Program-made: the position numbers and the translations under genes
Shown: piece by piece, positions 3,302 to 9,149 of the stretch
Layout of the letters: every line of letters begins with the position of its first letter
Position numbering within the stretch: the first letter of the stretch is position 1
Assembly (NCBI GenBank): GCA_900551385.1
Contig: URVS01000024.1
Span: 1-11,635 of the forward strand
DNA length: 11,635 bases
Direction of reading: 5' to 3'
Origin: an uncultured Mollicutes bacterium
Lineage (GTDB): Bacteria > Bacillota_I > Bacilli_A > RFN20 > CAG-449
The notes under the pieces: model-generated
What the model saw: the letters and a program-made list of their open reading frames with translations, nothing else
Database searches by the model: none
Told to the model about the DNA's origin: nothing

Positions 3302-4666
3302 ATGAAAAAGAAAAATGTCAATATAGAATTTATAGGTGAATGTGTAGATTTATCTAGTGATGGTAAAGGTGTAGTTAAATATAATTATATTGTAGGATTT
3401 GTAGATAATTTTTTACCTGGAGAAAAAGCTGAAATAATAATTACATATTTAAAAAAAGATATATTTTTTGGTAAAGTAAAAAATTATATTACTATTTCTA
3501 AAAATAGAGTAAAGCCAAAATGTCCATGTTTTTATGAATGTGGTGGATGTTCTATTATGCATTTAAGTTATGATGAACAATTAAAATATAAACAAAATAA
3601 AGTTCAAGAATGTTTAAAAAGAATAGGTGGAATTAATATAAATGTTCAACCTACTATTGGTATGTTAGATCCATATTGTTATAGAAATAAAATCCAAATG
3701 CCAATCAAACTTTCTAAAAAAGGTAAAATTGTTTCTGGTTTTTATAAAGAAAAAACACATGATATTGTACCAATAGAAACATGTGAAATAGAAAATAAAA
3801 AAGCAGATAAAATTCTTATTTCTATTAAATCTTTAATGAAAAAATATAGAATATTACCTTATGATGAAGATAAAAGAAAAGGTATTATTAGACATGTTTT
3901 AATTAGGACTTCTTTTCATTATGATGAAATTATGGTGGTATTAGTTACTAATGTAGATGTGTTCCCTGGTAGAAATGATTTTATTAAAGAATTAAAACAA
4001 CTTAATCCAGAAATTACTACTGTGATTCAAAATATTAATTCTCGTGATACAAATGTTATTCTTGGTGAAAAACAAAGAATTTTATTTGGTAAAGGTTATA
4101 TTAATGATGAATTATGTTCAATTAAATTTAAAATATCTCCTAAATCATTTTATCAAGTAAATCCTCTTCAAACAGAAAAATTATATTCTTTAGCAATTGA
4201 AAAAGCTAATATTAGTAAAAATGATTTAGTTTTAGATGCTTATTGTGGCATTGGCACAATTGGGTTAATTGCATCTAAATACGCTAGAGAAGTAGTAGGT
4301 GTAGAAATAGTTAAAGAAGCAGTTATTGATGCAGTTAACAATGCTAAAAATAATAATATTGAGAACGCTAAATTTTATGTTGGTGATGCTGGAGAATTTA
4401 TAATTAATGAATATAATCAAGGTGTTCGTTATGATGTAGTAATTATGGATCCACCTAGAAAAGGGTCAAGTGAAGAATTTTTATCTATTTTAATTAAAAC
4501 TAAACCATCAAGAATTGTATATGTTTCTTGTGATCCTGCTACATTAGCTAGAGACTTAAAATATTTATCTTCTGTATATGATATTGTTTCAGTAAATCCA
4601 GTTGATATGTTCCCACATACATTCCATGTTGAAAATGTGGTGTTGCTGAGTAAGAAAAACGGCTGA
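3302..4666 (+). CDS. rlmD: 23S rRNA (uracil-C5)-methyltransferase RlmD/RlmCD
   Basis: The enzyme methylates C5 of a 23S rRNA uridine (U1939, and in many Gram-positives also U747) using SAM. The 454-residue product starts with a TRAM-like RNA-binding domain (about 1-65). Cysteines for the [4Fe-4S] cluster follow: C74-X5-C80-GG-C83, with C161 as the fourth ligand. The SAM site is LDAYCGIGTIGL (311-322), with DPPRKGS at 383-389, the catalytic nucleophile C410 in VSCDPATLARDL, and the likely general base E444 in HVEN. Length is normal. The ATG at 3302 is chosen over GTG 3293, which lies inside the ribosome binding site. The last codons (GTG GTG TTG CTG AGT AAG) are far less AT-rich than the rest, and the 3' end is repeated at 6096-6137. 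The end of this gene was probably supplied by an inserted element while keeping an intact HVENVVLLS terminus. Confidence 0.93.
   Translation: MKKKNVNIEFIGECVDLSSDGKGVVKYNYIVGFVDNFLPGEKAEIIITYLKKDIFFGKVKNYITISKNRVKPKCPCFYECGGCSIMHLSYDEQLKYKQNKVQECLKRIGGININVQPTIGMLDPYCYRNKIQMPIKLSKKGKIVSGFYKEKTHDIVPIETCEIENKKADKILISIKSLMKKYRILPYDEDKRKGIIRHVLIRTSFHYDEIMVVLVTNVDVFPGRNDFIKELKQLNPEITTVIQNINSRDTNVILGEKQRILFGKGYINDELCSIKFKISPKSFYQVNPLQTEKLYSLAIEKANISKNDLVLDAYCGIGTIGLIASKYAREVVGVEIVKEAVIDAVNNAKNNNIENAKFYVGDAGEFIINEYNQGVRYDVVIMDPPRKGSSEEFLSILIKTKPSRIVYVSCDPATLARDLKYLSSVYDIVSVNPVDMFPHTFHVENVVLLSKKNG
4625..4644 (+). repeat. att-like direct repeat, left copy (inside rlmD 3' end)
   Basis: CATGTTGAAAATGTGGTGTT encodes HVENVV at the end of RlmD and recurs exactly at 6096-6115. 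Similarity continues past the core to about 4670, with scattered differences. The 3' end of rlmD/rumA (often called rum) is a known integration hot spot for phages and integrative elements in Gram-positive bacteria, which supports reading this as an attachment-site remnant. Confidence 0.65.
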
Positions 4667-4899
4667 AAAAGCTCAGTAAAACTGTGGTTTTTGGGCAATC
4701 GGACAAATTTTGGCATCGGGCAGGACGAACGCTTCTTGGTAACTTATCTAAAGATAGATTGGGTAAAAAATGTGAGAGTTGAGTTGCTGAGTTAGATGTT
4801 GTGGTAGTTGTGACTGTGAGATGGATGCCATGATAAAACAAGGATTCCTCGCTTCCATCAGTGGCAGGAGCGAAAATATAATAAAAGAGGTGGTAATTT

Positions 4900-5739
4900 A
4901 TGGACAAGATTCACATAGAAAAAGGGAGCGTGCAAGAAACGCTGATCATCCCATTATACGGACGGAAGCTTTGCGCGGAGCAATTTCCAACGTTGTATCA
5001 GGATAAATACGCCGCAAAGATCTGTGAGAGTATCGACTATGATTTTTCAAAGTTGAAAAGCAAGGAAAACAGCGCCATGTACCAGTTTGGTGCATTAGAA
5101 GGCGCTATGCGTGAAAAGGATATGCTTTGGGAAATTGCGGATTATCTGAAGACGCATCCGAAAGCCGCAGTAGTCAACTTGGGCTGTGGACTGAATATGA
5201 CCGGCAGAACAGCGGATAACGGAACCTGCTGTATCTATAACCTTGATTTTCCGGACGTGATAAAGTCACGTAATGAAATTATTCCTGCCGGAAAAAGAGA
5301 AGAAAATATAGCCTGTGATCTGAACGATTTTTCATGGATGGATAAAATCAATGCAAATGACGGTGCTATTCTGTACGCTGCCGGAGTGTTTCATTATTTC
5401 ACTACACATCAGATAAAGAACATGGTCATTGCAATGGCAGAAAAATTTCCGGGAGGCAGACTTGTTTTTGACGCGGTTGGAAAATTTGGAAGAGACAAAC
5501 TCTTGAAGAGCACTTTGAAAAGCATGGGCATGAATGATGTATCTGGACTTTTCTATGTAAATGATACTTCCGAACTTGAAGGATGGTCTAAGAAGGCAAA
5601 GCTCATGTCAAAAAAGAGTTATATGCATGGCTATTATAAACTCGATGATCCGAATATCAAGGGTATTCACCGCTTCCTCGCAAAGCTCTGTGACAGCCTT
5701 GCTAAGATGTATATCTACCGTATGGATTTTTCCGATTAA
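4900..5739 (+). CDS. Class I SAM methyltransferase, leucine carboxyl methyltransferase family
   Basis: The 279-residue product resembles the COG3315 (LCMT/PPM1/TcmP-like) O-methyltransferases. The region before motif I contains QFGALEGAMREKDM. The SAM-binding motif is VVNLGCGLNMTGRT (about 91-104), the acidic ribose-binding loop is YNLDFPDVIKSRNEI (about 113-127), and PGGRLVFDAVG is a later strand-turn. Length suits the family. In bacteria these enzymes methylate small molecules or are uncharacterised, so the substrate cannot be stated. The ATG at 4900 has a strong AGAGGTGG (4886-4893) six bases upstream. There is no signal peptide, so it is cytoplasmic. G/C-ending codons such as CTG, CGG, GCC and ATC contrast sharply with the surrounding genes. 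With its position between duplicated rlmD 3' ends, this supports acquisition from a more GC-rich Firmicute such as a clostridium. It is probably passenger cargo. Confidence 0.8.
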   Translation: MDKIHIEKGSVQETLIIPLYGRKLCAEQFPTLYQDKYAAKICESIDYDFSKLKSKENSAMYQFGALEGAMREKDMLWEIADYLKTHPKAAVVNLGCGLNMTGRTADNGTCCIYNLDFPDVIKSRNEIIPAGKREENIACDLNDFSWMDKINANDGAILYAAGVFHYFTTHQIKNMVIAMAEKFPGGRLVFDAVGKFGRDKLLKSTLKSMGMNDVSGLFYVNDTSELEGWSKKAKLMSKKSYMHGYYKLDDPNIKGIHRFLAKLCDSLAKMYIYRMDFSD

Positions 5740-6070: not shown

Positions 6071-6137
6071 ACCTGTTCCTTGCATCCAATCTATGCATGT
6101 TGAAAATGTGGTGTTACTTAGTCGCAAAAATAGCTAA
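6032..6137 (+). pseudogene. Displaced 3' end of rlmD
   Basis: GTTGATATGTTCC at 6032-6044 matches 4601-4613 of rlmD (VDMF). After about 50 unrelated bases, the frame ending at 6137 reads HVENVVLLSRKNS and a TAA stop, against HVENVVLLSKKNG in rlmD. This is what remains of the original gene terminus after an integration event separated it from the body. A rho-independent terminator follows at 6184, as expected for the old end of the transcription unit. The 50-base interruption between the two matching patches suggests a second rearrangement or insertion. Confidence 0.6.
6096..6115 (+). repeat. att-like direct repeat, right copy
   Basis: Exact 20-base match to 4625-4644, in the same orientation and in the same reading frame relative to the HVENVV codons. 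Downstream the two copies keep diverged similarity (AGT, AAAAA, GCT and poly-A positions). The right copy ends in TAA where rlmD now ends in TGA. Confidence 0.65.
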
Positions 6138-6183
6138 AAAAGACCAAAAATCGTAAAAAATTGAAGGATTTCCTGCTTCTCAG

Positions 6184-6346: not shown

Positions 6347-6799
6347 ATGAATGATGATTCTAGTTTATCGCACACAAGATGGAATTTTAAGTATCATATT
6401 GTTTTTGTTCCAAAGTATAGAAGAAAAGTAATATATGGAAAATTAAGAGTAGAGATAGGAGCAATTCTACGACAACTTTGTGCCTATAAAGATGTCGAAA
6501 TAATAGAGGCGCATGCGATGCCTGATTATATACATATGCTTGTTAAAATACCACCAAAGATATCGGTATCGAACTTTATGGGATATTTAAAAGGAAAAAG
6601 CAGTTTGATGATCTTTGAAAGATTCGCAAACTTAAAATATAAGTTTGGTAATAAGGTCTTCTGGACAAAAGAATATTATGTTTCAACAGTTGGACTTGAT
6701 ACAAAAAAAGTACAATAGTACATTCGAGACCAAGAAAAAGAAGGCCTTATGACAGATAGTATGTCAACCAAGGAATATGTAGACCCTTTTAAAGGGTAG
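6347..6799 (+). pseudogene. tnpA: IS200-type transposase TnpA, inactivated
   Basis: The reading frame closely fits IS200-family TnpA (W-N-F-K-Y-H-I-V-F-V-P-K-Y near the N-terminus, MGYLKGKSSLMIF, NLKYKFGN, FW, YYVSTVGL, and a DPFKG terminus). The start ATG at 6347 has a perfect AAAGGAGG (6331-6338) 8 bases upstream. Two lesions hit catalytic parts. Codon 61 is Tyr where the first His of the HUH metal-binding motif is expected (MPDYIHML instead of MPDHVHML), a change one C-to-T step away. Codon 124 is TAG (6716-6718), immediately before Y125 of YIRDQ, the position of the nucleophilic Tyr with its partner Gln. After the stop the same frame runs on intact to TAG at 6797-6799, giving the usual length of about 150 codons. 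The truncated 123-residue product cannot cleave DNA. Confidence 0.88.
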
Positions 6800-6899: not shown

Positions 6900-7189
6900 G
6901 TACTATTGCAAAAAATACCTTAAATGATGGTAAAACGGTAAAAATAAGGTCTTTAGTAGTATGGGGAAACAGGCCGACACCCAAAAAAGCACCCATCCTA
7001 CATCGTATCGATATGGGAATAGAGGAGGAACATTTATACACTATGGTAGGAATAGGTGAAAAAGCTTCTACCATGCTCGTATGTATAAAGAAAAAAATTC
7101 TCTTTTGGAAACATAACAAAAATATGGAAGTGCATGTTGAAATAGCAAAAAGAAGTCACAAGAAAAAAAGATATGTTTTAAAACTTTGA
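6890..7189 (+). other. Unassigned stretch after the IS with a 99-codon open frame
   Basis: A frame opens just inside the IS right hairpin (previous stop at 6887-6889) and continues to TGA at 7187-7189. Its composition is protein-like and rich in charged residues (for example VKIRSLVVWGNRPTPKKAP and MGIEEEHLYTMVGIGEKAS). There is no good start near the 5' end. An internal ATG at 7039 would give about 49 residues, but its AGGAGG is too far upstream. I recognise no family. It could be the distal part of a gene cut by the IS or a degenerate RNA-encoding region. An opposite-strand frame (6892-7119) is less protein-like. Confidence 0.25.
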
Positions 7190-7254
7190 ATATGGTTGGC
7201 AAATTTTTTATTAATTAACAAATTAAATTTTGATTAAGTAAATGAATTATAATT

Positions 7255-7294
7255 ATCGTTGGAATTTTCTTAAATTTATTGAAATTCCAATGAA
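7255..7294 (+). repeat. 40-bp palindrome A, overlapping the ATPase promoter
   Basis: The left arm ATCGTTGGAAT (7255-7265) and right arm (7284-7294, ATTCCAATGAA, two mismatches to a perfect complement) flank an 18-base loop. An alternative pairing, CGTTGGAATTT (7257-7267) with AAATTCCAATG (7282-7292), has a single G:T. It matches palindrome B at 8548-8587 in 31 of 40 positions, including loop positions. The right arm covers the -35 box and part of the spacer of the ATPase promoter, so a protein bound here would be expected to block transcription. Confidence 0.75.
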
Positions 7295-7306
7295 AAATGA
7301 TATAAT
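7279..7306 (+). promoter_or_regulatory. Extended -10 promoter of the ATPase gene, apparently leaderless
   Basis: TTGAAA (7279-7284), 16 bases, then TATAAT (7301-7306) preceded by TGA, giving an extended -10 TGATATAAT. The normal start of transcription would fall at about 7312-7314, on the ATG itself at 7313. No Shine-Dalgarno sequence is present between promoter and ATG, unlike the other genes here. Confidence 0.6.
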
Positions 7307-7312
7307 TTAAAT

Positions 7313-8548
7313 ATGGAAAAGATTATTATAAGAGAAAAATATTTAGAAAAAATACGACCATTTTACGATTCTAAATATATTAAAGTAATTACTGGTGTTC
7401 GCAGATGTGGTAAAACAGAACTTTTATTTCAAATTATTAATGAAATAAAAGGATCAGGCGTTAATGAAAAAAATATTATAGTATTTGATTTAGAAGGGAA
7501 AAGTGGAGAAGGTATTACAACAAGATTGTCTTTAGAAAAAAGACTTAATAAACTAATCAAAGATGATGAAAAGTATTATATATTTATTGACGAAGTGCAA
7601 CGAATCAAAAAGTTTGAAGAAGCTATTGCTTCTGTTAGGGTTAGTTTTAATTGTTCATTATTTGTTACTGGAAGTAATTCTAAGATGTTACATGGTAAAA
7701 TGCAAGATCGTTTAACTGGTAGAGCAAAAGAGTTTGAAATTTATCCTTTTACTTATAATGAGACATTAGAATACAAGAAAGTAAATAATATTAAAATTCT
7801 AGAAAATGAGTTTGAGAATTTTATAGAATATGGCGGTATGCCTCAACGATTTGAAGAAGTTGATGAAAATGGGATTCGTGAATATTTATTAGGGCTATAT
7901 TATTCGATAATAGACAAAGATGTTTATTTTGTTCATAAGAAGATTAGTAAAAAAGATTTTATGAATATTTCAAAATATATAATTTCAACAACTGGTAAAA
8001 CTTTTTCAGCATTATCGATAGCAAAATATTTAAAAAACTCGTTACCTAGTGATGAACAAAAAAAATTTTCTGAAACTGTTAATAATTATGCAAAGTATTT
8101 AGAAGAATGTTACTTTATTATGGAATGCAAACCATATTATTTAAAAGGAAAAGAAGCATTAAATGGGACAAAAAAATATTATGCAATTGATAGTGGCCTG
8201 AGAAATGCTTTAGGAAATATTATTGAATTAGATGATACATTTGCTTTAGAAGGTATTATTTATAATGAATTATTATATCGTGGATATGAAGTTAGATATG
8301 GTAAAATGATAGATGGAGAAATTGACTTTGTTGCAATTAAAGGAAAAAAGAAATGTTTAATTCAAGTAGCATATTCAGTAGATACTGAAAAAGCATATAA
8401 TCGTGAATACGGAGCATTTGATAAAATTAATGATTATTCTCCAAAGTATGTAATGACTTTGGATAAAAAAGATACATCTACTAATGGTATTACTCATATT
8501 AATATTATTGATTTTTTAACAAATAAAGTTGATATTAACCTTTCATAA
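7313..8548 (+). CDS. COG1373 family ATPase (AAA_14 + DUF4143)
   Basis: The 411-residue product has the standard two-part build of this widespread, poorly understood family. The N-terminal P-loop domain has Walker A GVRRCGKT (28-35), Walker B YYIFIDE (88-94; D93, E94) and a sensor-like FVTGSNSKML (117-126), then RLTGRAKEFEIYPFTYNE. The C-terminal DUF4143 domain (about 200-400) ends in a restriction-endonuclease-like core: GEIDF (335-339) followed by LIQVAY (349-354), with Gln where the active nuclease motif has Glu. It should bind and hydrolyse ATP in the cytoplasm; its biological role is unknown. Length is normal and all key P-loop residues are intact. The ATG at 7313 is the only start that keeps the usual N-terminus (E-KYL-KI-PF). 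It stands alone, bracketed by two related palindromes, and appears to be translated from a leaderless mRNA. A broken relative lies at 8956. Confidence 0.88.
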   Translation: MEKIIIREKYLEKIRPFYDSKYIKVITGVRRCGKTELLFQIINEIKGSGVNEKNIIVFDLEGKSGEGITTRLSLEKRLNKLIKDDEKYYIFIDEVQRIKKFEEAIASVRVSFNCSLFVTGSNSKMLHGKMQDRLTGRAKEFEIYPFTYNETLEYKKVNNIKILENEFENFIEYGGMPQRFEEVDENGIREYLLGLYYSIIDKDVYFVHKKISKKDFMNISKYIISTTGKTFSALSIAKYLKNSLPSDEQKKFSETVNNYAKYLEECYFIMECKPYYLKGKEALNGTKKYYAIDSGLRNALGNIIELDDTFALEGIIYNELLYRGYEVRYGKMIDGEIDFVAIKGKKKCLIQVAYSVDTEKAYNREYGAFDKINDYSPKYVMTLDKKDTSTNGITHINIIDFLTNKVDINLS

Positions 8549-8587
8549 TCGTTGGAATAATTGTAATTTTATTAAGATTCCAACGAT
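8548..8587 (+). repeat. 40-bp palindrome B, starting on the ATPase stop codon
   Basis: Perfect 11-bp arms ATCGTTGGAAT (8548-8558) and ATTCCAACGAT (8577-8587) enclose an 18-base loop, the same geometry as palindrome A. The first base is the last A of the ATPase TAA stop. No run of T follows closely enough to make a textbook terminator, although a hairpin here could still protect or end the transcript. Confidence 0.8.
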
Positions 8588-8589
8588 AA

Positions 8590-8955: not shown

Positions 8956-9149
8956 ATGGAGTTTAAGATGGACAAATACCTTGAAGTAAAAGAAAATGGT
9001 TTCCCAAAGGTAATAATTGGTATAAGAAGATGCGGTAGATTTTATTTATTGGATACAATTTATAGAGAATATTTCAACATGATGAGGACATGATTAAAAA
9101 GTTCGCCTCCGAATCATTCATCAAATATCAAACCATGATTGCTTATTAG
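8956..9149 (+). pseudogene. Frameshifted N-terminal remnant of a second COG1373 ATPase
   Basis: From ATG 8956, with GAGGA (8945-8949) as ribosome binding site, the frame reads DKYLEVKENGFPKVIIGIRR, then CGRFYLLDTIYREYF, before stopping at TGA 9091-9093. This is the family's N-terminus up to and past Walker A. The P-loop is GIRRCGRF, so the essential Lys is Arg and the following Ser/Thr is Phe. Near 9075 the similarity moves to another frame (QHDEDMIKKFASESFIKYQT), which fits the family's next segment (DE..IIKF) and ends at TAG 9147-9149. About 85% of the gene, including Walker B and DUF4143, is missing. The sequence is clearly different from the intact ATPase at 7313, so it is a decayed paralogue and not a recent duplicate. 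Confidence 0.7.

Follow-up and report, generated by a model that had tools for sequence, protein, structure and literature searches.

The window analysed here is a stretch of 11,635 nucleotides (positions 1 to 11,635 of contig URVS01000024.1, assembly GCA_900551385.1) from an uncultured Mollicutes bacterium. At 7313–8548 on the forward strand it carries a gene for a 411-amino-acid AAA+ ATPase with AAA_14 and DUF4143 domains, the PADLOC candidate PDC-S01; the label COG1373 for this protein is that of the first-pass annotation. The ATPase gene is the only gene enclosed by two related palindromes, an upstream copy at 7255–7294 (palindrome 1) and a downstream copy at 8548–8587 (palindrome 2), and the unit formed by palindrome, promoter and gene, and palindrome measures about 1.34 kb. 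Judging from its relatives, this copy would be mobile.

The two palindromes share 31 of 40 positions, as the first-pass annotation had stated, and their placement around the gene is also as it described: palindrome 1 ends 18 bases 5' of the ATG at 7313, and the first base of palindrome 2 is the last base of the TAA stop codon (8546–8548). The outer arms, 7253–7265 on the forward and 8577–8589 on the reverse strand, are perfect 13-bp inverted repeats of each other, again in agreement with that description. The 11-base arms claimed for both copies are perfect in palindrome 2, and palindrome 1 is mismatched once inside the arm and once at the outermost pair. A repeat finder returned the pair as a direct repeat (D5, 47 nt, 79%) and also as the longest inverted pair (I1). 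A search of Rfam at the gathering threshold gave no match. A putative -35 box (TTGAAA, 7279–7284) lies within palindrome 1, and a putative -10 box (TATAAT, 7301–7306, forward strand) follows 16 bp past it, in the interval between palindrome 1 and the ATG; both were read from the sequence.

Brackets of this kind recur among related genes. For each gene, 180 bases upstream were compared with 150 bases downstream, within its locus and across loci, in a collection of loci from genomes (80) and viruses (5), together with 8 plasmid and phage records and further genomes. Removal of hits whose flanks were shorter than 60 bases, that contained runs of N or whose cores were identical reduced 264 gene hits to 196; related species were counted separately, and the 196 genes are not independent. 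The window match scored 57 and exceeds chance: among 1,960 mismatched pairs formed from these 196 genes, the 99th percentile lay at 48; the largest mismatched-pair score was 78, some mismatched loci being related to one another. Forty of the 196 AAA_14/DUF4143 genes lay above the same percentile, where about 2 were expected (smaller earlier sets gave 17 of 114 and then 29 of 141). By identity to the window protein, bracketed genes made up 11 of the 12 with at least 50%, 4 of 15 at 45–50%, 9 of 28 at 40–45%, 6 of 77 at 35–40%, 8 of 56 at 30–35% and 2 of 8 below 30%. For 36 of the 40, the start of the downstream match lies no further than 12 nt from the stop codon; loci L059, L109, L158 and L203 count as bracketed by score, without contact with the stop codon, and a few of the score-based brackets (e.g., L098 and L110) show no clear palindromes by eye. 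Inverted repeats spanning 35–46 bp were found upstream of 26 and downstream of 22 of the bracketed genes. A test of the -10 box in the same 40 genes found TATAAT-like boxes in 25, hardly above expectation (a fraction of 0.52 in shuffled sequences). None of the 8 plasmid and phage records examined, from 238 plasmid and 17 phage records (255 in all), was bracketed.

Near-identical units were found in distant hosts with little or no common flanking sequence. Palindrome cross-matches aside, a single island is the sole DNA common to genomes G057 and G123 (20 kb each), to G002, G041 and G152 (12, 16.8 and 6.4 kb), and to G004 and G077 (15.5 and 18 kb); the sequence 5' of the gene is short in G002 and G004. 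These islands are 1.39–1.60 kb long and 84.6–97.1% identical, with the ATPase as their only gene. The units are far more alike than the rpoB regions of the same hosts: 97.1% versus 72% for G002–G041, 95.6% versus 70% for G057–G123, 89.9% over 1,343 bp versus 71% for G057–G083, and 84.6% versus 69% for G004–G077. The rpoB region was not found for G152. In G126–G197, a pair outside the rpoB comparison, 1,357 bp agree at 86.4% and the rest of the 8–9 kb has nothing in common. In five of eight bracketed comparisons (G002–G041, G002–G152, G057–G083, G123–G083 and G126–G197) the left end of the island falls within 3 bp of the outer edge of the upstream palindrome.

The first-pass annotation had asked whether empty sites exist in related strains; two relatives carry an empty site that keeps exactly one palindrome. 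G049 has the order palindrome, gene, palindrome, and G071 has a single palindrome, identical to G049 copy 1, followed by the right flank; the flanks are identical at 1,434 of 1,500 (left) and 1,430 of 1,520 (right) alignment columns. Likewise, G222 has one slightly decayed palindrome at the position of the unit shared by G055 and G102. In G117 and G123, stretches matching the two flanking genes of that locus lie 118–155 bp apart and no palindrome was found; this points to loss of the gene from G222, as opposed to a locus that never had it. In G083, about 50 nt lying 5' of the upstream palindrome correspond to the final 50 nt of an ATPase gene of this kind, and in G106 (L181, ~1500–1690) a remnant gene 3' end, a palindrome and about 100 bp are 95% identical to G152, with different sequence attached; both fit a gene plus one palindrome as the repeating piece of arrays.

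The islands and empty sites support the earlier suggestion of a minimal gene cassette that spreads. By this comparison, units were exchanged between distant bacteria in recent times, and neighbouring genes did not travel with them. We conclude, from comparison of sequences, that the arrangement is rather probably a one-gene mobile unit, with the palindromes as its recombination ends and the gene exchanged together with one of them. In the proposed mechanism, the winged-helix domain of the ATPase would bind its own palindrome; the upstream copy, covering the putative -35, would be an operator; and the pair would provide the ends across which gene and one palindrome are exchanged, as in an att-flanked cassette. 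The exchange would be driven either by the ATPase/PD-(D/E)XK-like protein or by host homologous recombination.

The window ATPase matches the PADLOC profile PDLC04787 (PDC-S01) with 406.2 bits over residues 1–405 of 411. Its predicted structure is confident (mean pLDDT, the predicted local distance difference test, 88.8) and appears to comprise an AAA+ part, a winged-helix-like part at about residues 213–291 and a PD-(D/E)XK-like core at 308–402, the domains being named from the order of their elements. In an alignment of 45 sequences E319, E336 and D338 are invariant and Q351 is present in at least 90%. Structural comparison of residues 1–307 matched the archaeal ATPases 2fna (SSO1545) and 2qen (a Walker-type ATPase of Pyrococcus abyssi), NLRs and Orc1/Cdc6. 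The alignments with the two archaeal proteins stop at about residue 302, and no fold match extends into the PD-(D/E)XK-like part. A profile search for solved homologues returned matches to designed repeat proteins and weak ones to a virulence-named protein, none of which was counted as real.

The palindromes are alike inside one unit and different across units (TCGTTTGAAT, GCGTATGAAT, AGCGTTCCGAT, GTGCCCCAAAT, AGTGTTACAAA, ATCAACATGA), and their similarity tracks protein identity (r = 0.87, 24 genes). These data also bear on autoregulation as the whole explanation, in which the ATPase represses its own gene through the upstream palindrome, a private promoter operator, a second operator past the stop codon either reinforces that repression by looping or is a roadblock to incoming transcription, the two copies stay alike since one protein reads both, and the genes spread by ordinary horizontal transfer. 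We give this account about an even chance. Inverted repeats at p ≤ 0.05 lie upstream of 26 of the 40 bracketed and 74 of the 156 non-bracketed genes, and downstream of 23 and 24, respectively; upstream palindromes are thus frequent without a downstream copy, as an operator would predict. A distant family member on viral contig L294 has three palindrome copies, two that flank a promoter-like box (5630–5660 and 5708–5738) and a third after the gene (7065–7095), an arrangement in keeping with an operator. When overall identity is removed, the best windows of partial correlation with the palindrome lie at about residues 30–48 and the next at 242–257, the predicted recognition helix. The secondary peak is what autoregulation would lead one to expect, although the correlation with this helix is weak and suggestive only, the top peak lies outside the winged helix, and most of the relationship is already accounted for by protein identity alone. 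Autoregulation alone also leaves unexplained the lone-gene islands edged at the palindrome and the position of the downstream site at the stop codon. An operator, which the first-pass annotation had set aside as the dull alternative, is probably present as well, because palindrome 1 overlaps the putative promoter; lone upstream palindromes are also common. The upstream palindrome would then probably serve autoregulation within the mobile unit.

Scans of the genomes of relatives placed two palindrome types at their own units or empty sites only. In four genomes the palindrome GTGTTACAAA was confined to units, with two copies each in G057, G083 and G049, and in G123 one exact copy and another with a mismatch. 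A scan of five genomes for this palindrome found two copies in G049, one in G071 and none in G002, G020 or G100. The palindrome CGTTCCGATTTT, sought in 37 genomes of one genus, occurred twice in G055, twice in G102 and once in G222, confined to that locus, and was absent from the other 34. The control, a backwards pattern, had no hits in any of these scans. A family of repetitive extragenic palindromic or miniature inverted-repeat transposable elements (REP/MITE) was rejected: both scanned palindrome types, which belong to units other than that of the window, were absent beyond their own units and empty sites. In its strict form the window palindrome had no matches in the viral contigs, where it was scanned. 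The idea that the 40-mer is a shared REP/MITE-like mark was not supported; at other such genes, which the first-pass annotation had proposed to check for copies of it, the bracket recurs with different sequences.

The differences between units bear equally on the proposal that the gene is a passenger moved in trans by another element, such as the adjacent transposase of the IS200 insertion sequence family. Such a transposase is indeed encoded upstream of the unit in the window (6347–6715), yet it has no match in 332 other loci, which mostly extend over no more than a few kb, and palindromes that differ from unit to unit present no visible common end for one trans-acting enzyme. We regard this proposal as very improbable. 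An IS200/IS605 element as such was also rejected; the unit contains the ATPase and no Y1 transposase, and the window TnpA is the protein without a match in those 332 loci.

A different source of mobility would be the ATPase itself, binding both palindromes and cutting or pairing them through its nuclease-like domain, with movement of gene and one palindrome. The ATPase is the unit's sole gene, its apparent make-up of AAA+, winged-helix and PD-(D/E)XK-like parts would suit the task, the empty sites keep one palindrome, and in G083 a gene 3' end stands directly before the palindrome of another copy. Nevertheless, the catalytic lysine seems absent, no junction was seen at which the state before insertion is known, passive recombination is enough for the losses, and most right ends of the islands lie off the palindrome. 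A role of the ATPase as mobiliser is rather unlikely in our estimate. Passive recombination could have caused the losses, and protein-assisted movement behind them is on balance improbable.

Several observations weigh against reading the bracketed gene as a mobile unit. Some 80% of the 196 genes are unbracketed, and the closest DNA relative (L001/L086, 69%) has the upstream palindrome alone. The motif QVAY at residues 351–354 indicates that the usual PD-(D/E)XK lysine seems to be replaced, and a direct repeat of 37–40 bp can disappear by ordinary recombination. In G222 about 45 bases past the palindrome are unmatched. A third empty site, sought for G121, was not found, and when 37 genomes were searched with the sequences on either side of the G123 unit, the matches were mainly to tRNA-Phe and tRNA-Asp genes together with weak coding matches, none of them clearly an empty site. 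Three of the eight island comparisons extend 79–202 bp further left, and the right end lies within 6 bp of the downstream palindrome in two only; these two, both involving G083, end 5–6 bp beyond it, G126–G197 ends 21 bp beyond it and the remaining five 53–180 bp. The left edges that fall at the palindrome represent three unit families; two of these five edges involve G002 and two involve G083. In G002 merely 196 bp precede the gene, and its edge was set at -61 after its relatives, the script having scored a shorter inner palindrome. One common segment takes in the start of a neighbouring open reading frame (ORF), and an unbracketed pair (G122–G012, 84.8%) is likewise a lone island within 1.5-kb flanks. 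In the close relatives G055 and G102 (rpoB 96.7%) the unit is syntenic. A tRNA-Phe gene lies about 450–590 bp upstream of the G123 and G083 units (L153 11888–12044, L154 9432–9507), and the two are 82% identical over 169 bp near it; these units may therefore share a common site or descend from one insertion. Finally, transfer via recombination in flanking repeats is possible because the units of G152, G041 and G002 adjoin a conserved repeat.

Among known systems, the nearest analogue of the mobile unit proposed here is a cassette in which each gene has one recombination site. In integron gene cassettes and att-flanked elements, a gene is exchanged together with one site and the empty site retains one site. 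The window-type unit would also consist of a gene and one site, and its empty site also holds one palindrome; unlike integron cassettes, it has no integrase gene between the palindromes, has a putative promoter of its own and has a site that varies with each gene, in a comparison made without an attC or integrase search. Insertion sequences, including IS200/IS605, can likewise be single-gene units with palindromic ends. The present unit differs from them in having no transposase between the palindromes and in ending in two matched, internally palindromic 40-mers. Tn7-type elements transpose by the joint action of TnsA, a PD-(D/E)XK nuclease, and TnsC, an AAA+ ATPase; the unit lacks a DDE transposase between its palindromes.

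Genome G001 (uncultured Erysipelotrichaceae metagenome-assembled genome RUG13722) has 29 matches to the window ATPase at 23 places in 1.9 Mb, several of the matches being pieces of one gene, and at C35 of this genome two such genes face each other, each with its own palindrome pair. The vicinity of tRNA-Phe is possibly a preferred neighbourhood for units. A conserved stretch of about 122 nt (TTCTGCC...TCTAGGCA) adjoins the units of G152 and G002 and, in a form that looks diverged by eye, that of G041; it was found in L155, L156, L157, L295, L296 and L297, and in L295 a terminator-like hairpin follows it. No Rfam match was obtained for it in the five loci scanned, and it may be an unlisted small RNA. 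Viral relatives number five, all distant; L084 and L085 are largely alike over their full length and are therefore uninformative on insertion.

Just 3' of the unit in the window, 8956–9084 is what remains of another ATPase gene from the same family, its N-terminal end (best matches 52–58% identity, E down to 1e-8), and such genes therefore cluster in the window too. Further upstream, a 47-bp repeat at 4625–4671 and 6096–6142 (83% identical) corresponds to the 3' end of a tRNA/rRNA uracil-5-methyltransferase-type gene. The sequence between its copies has higher G+C (about 0.35–0.42 versus 0.2–0.26) and contains a second methyltransferase-like gene; the arrangement resembles what an insertion at the 3' end of the uracil-5-methyltransferase-type gene would leave. 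A RelB-type antitoxin gene lies at 191–463, with no adjacent same-strand ORF of at least 80 amino acids in the ORF list.

The strong profile match places the window protein in the same family as PDC-S01, which is filed as a single-gene defence candidate. Two papers report PDC-S01 in fourth place by frequency among the defences of prokaryotes (PMC12988326) and as the most frequent individual locus in a survey of rumen genomes (PMC13356809). One of these papers describes PDC-S01 and PDC-S27 as each an ATPase fused to a PD-(D/E)XK member, reports that PDC-S01 crossed between domains several times, and notes that validation is still pending for most such defence candidates. In the open-licence literature we recognised no paper tying PDC-S01 genes to flanking palindromes or to mobility of the unit. 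The PADLOC interpretation, in which an antiphage defence gene sits in islands that turn over via host recombination, draws on the profile match (406 bits, residues 1–405) and on the place of PDC-S01 among the commonest candidates in these papers; the bracket and the empty sites suggest that mobility could add to that abundance. As the explanation of this locus we consider it possible, at somewhat less than even chances, and defence and mobility are compatible.

In the fullest version of the proposal, PDC-S01 genes of this clade would be autonomous elements without a transposase, whose AAA+/winged-helix/PD-(D/E)XK-like protein reads a private 40-bp palindrome at both ends and exchanges the gene with one palindrome, their own mobility underlying much of their abundance; taken as a whole, this is unlikely, and we offer it tentatively. 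The matched palindrome pair and the empty sites with one palindrome provide a handle on the DNA site that the protein probably reads, and counts of PDC-S01 as a defence system may partly tally a mobile unit.
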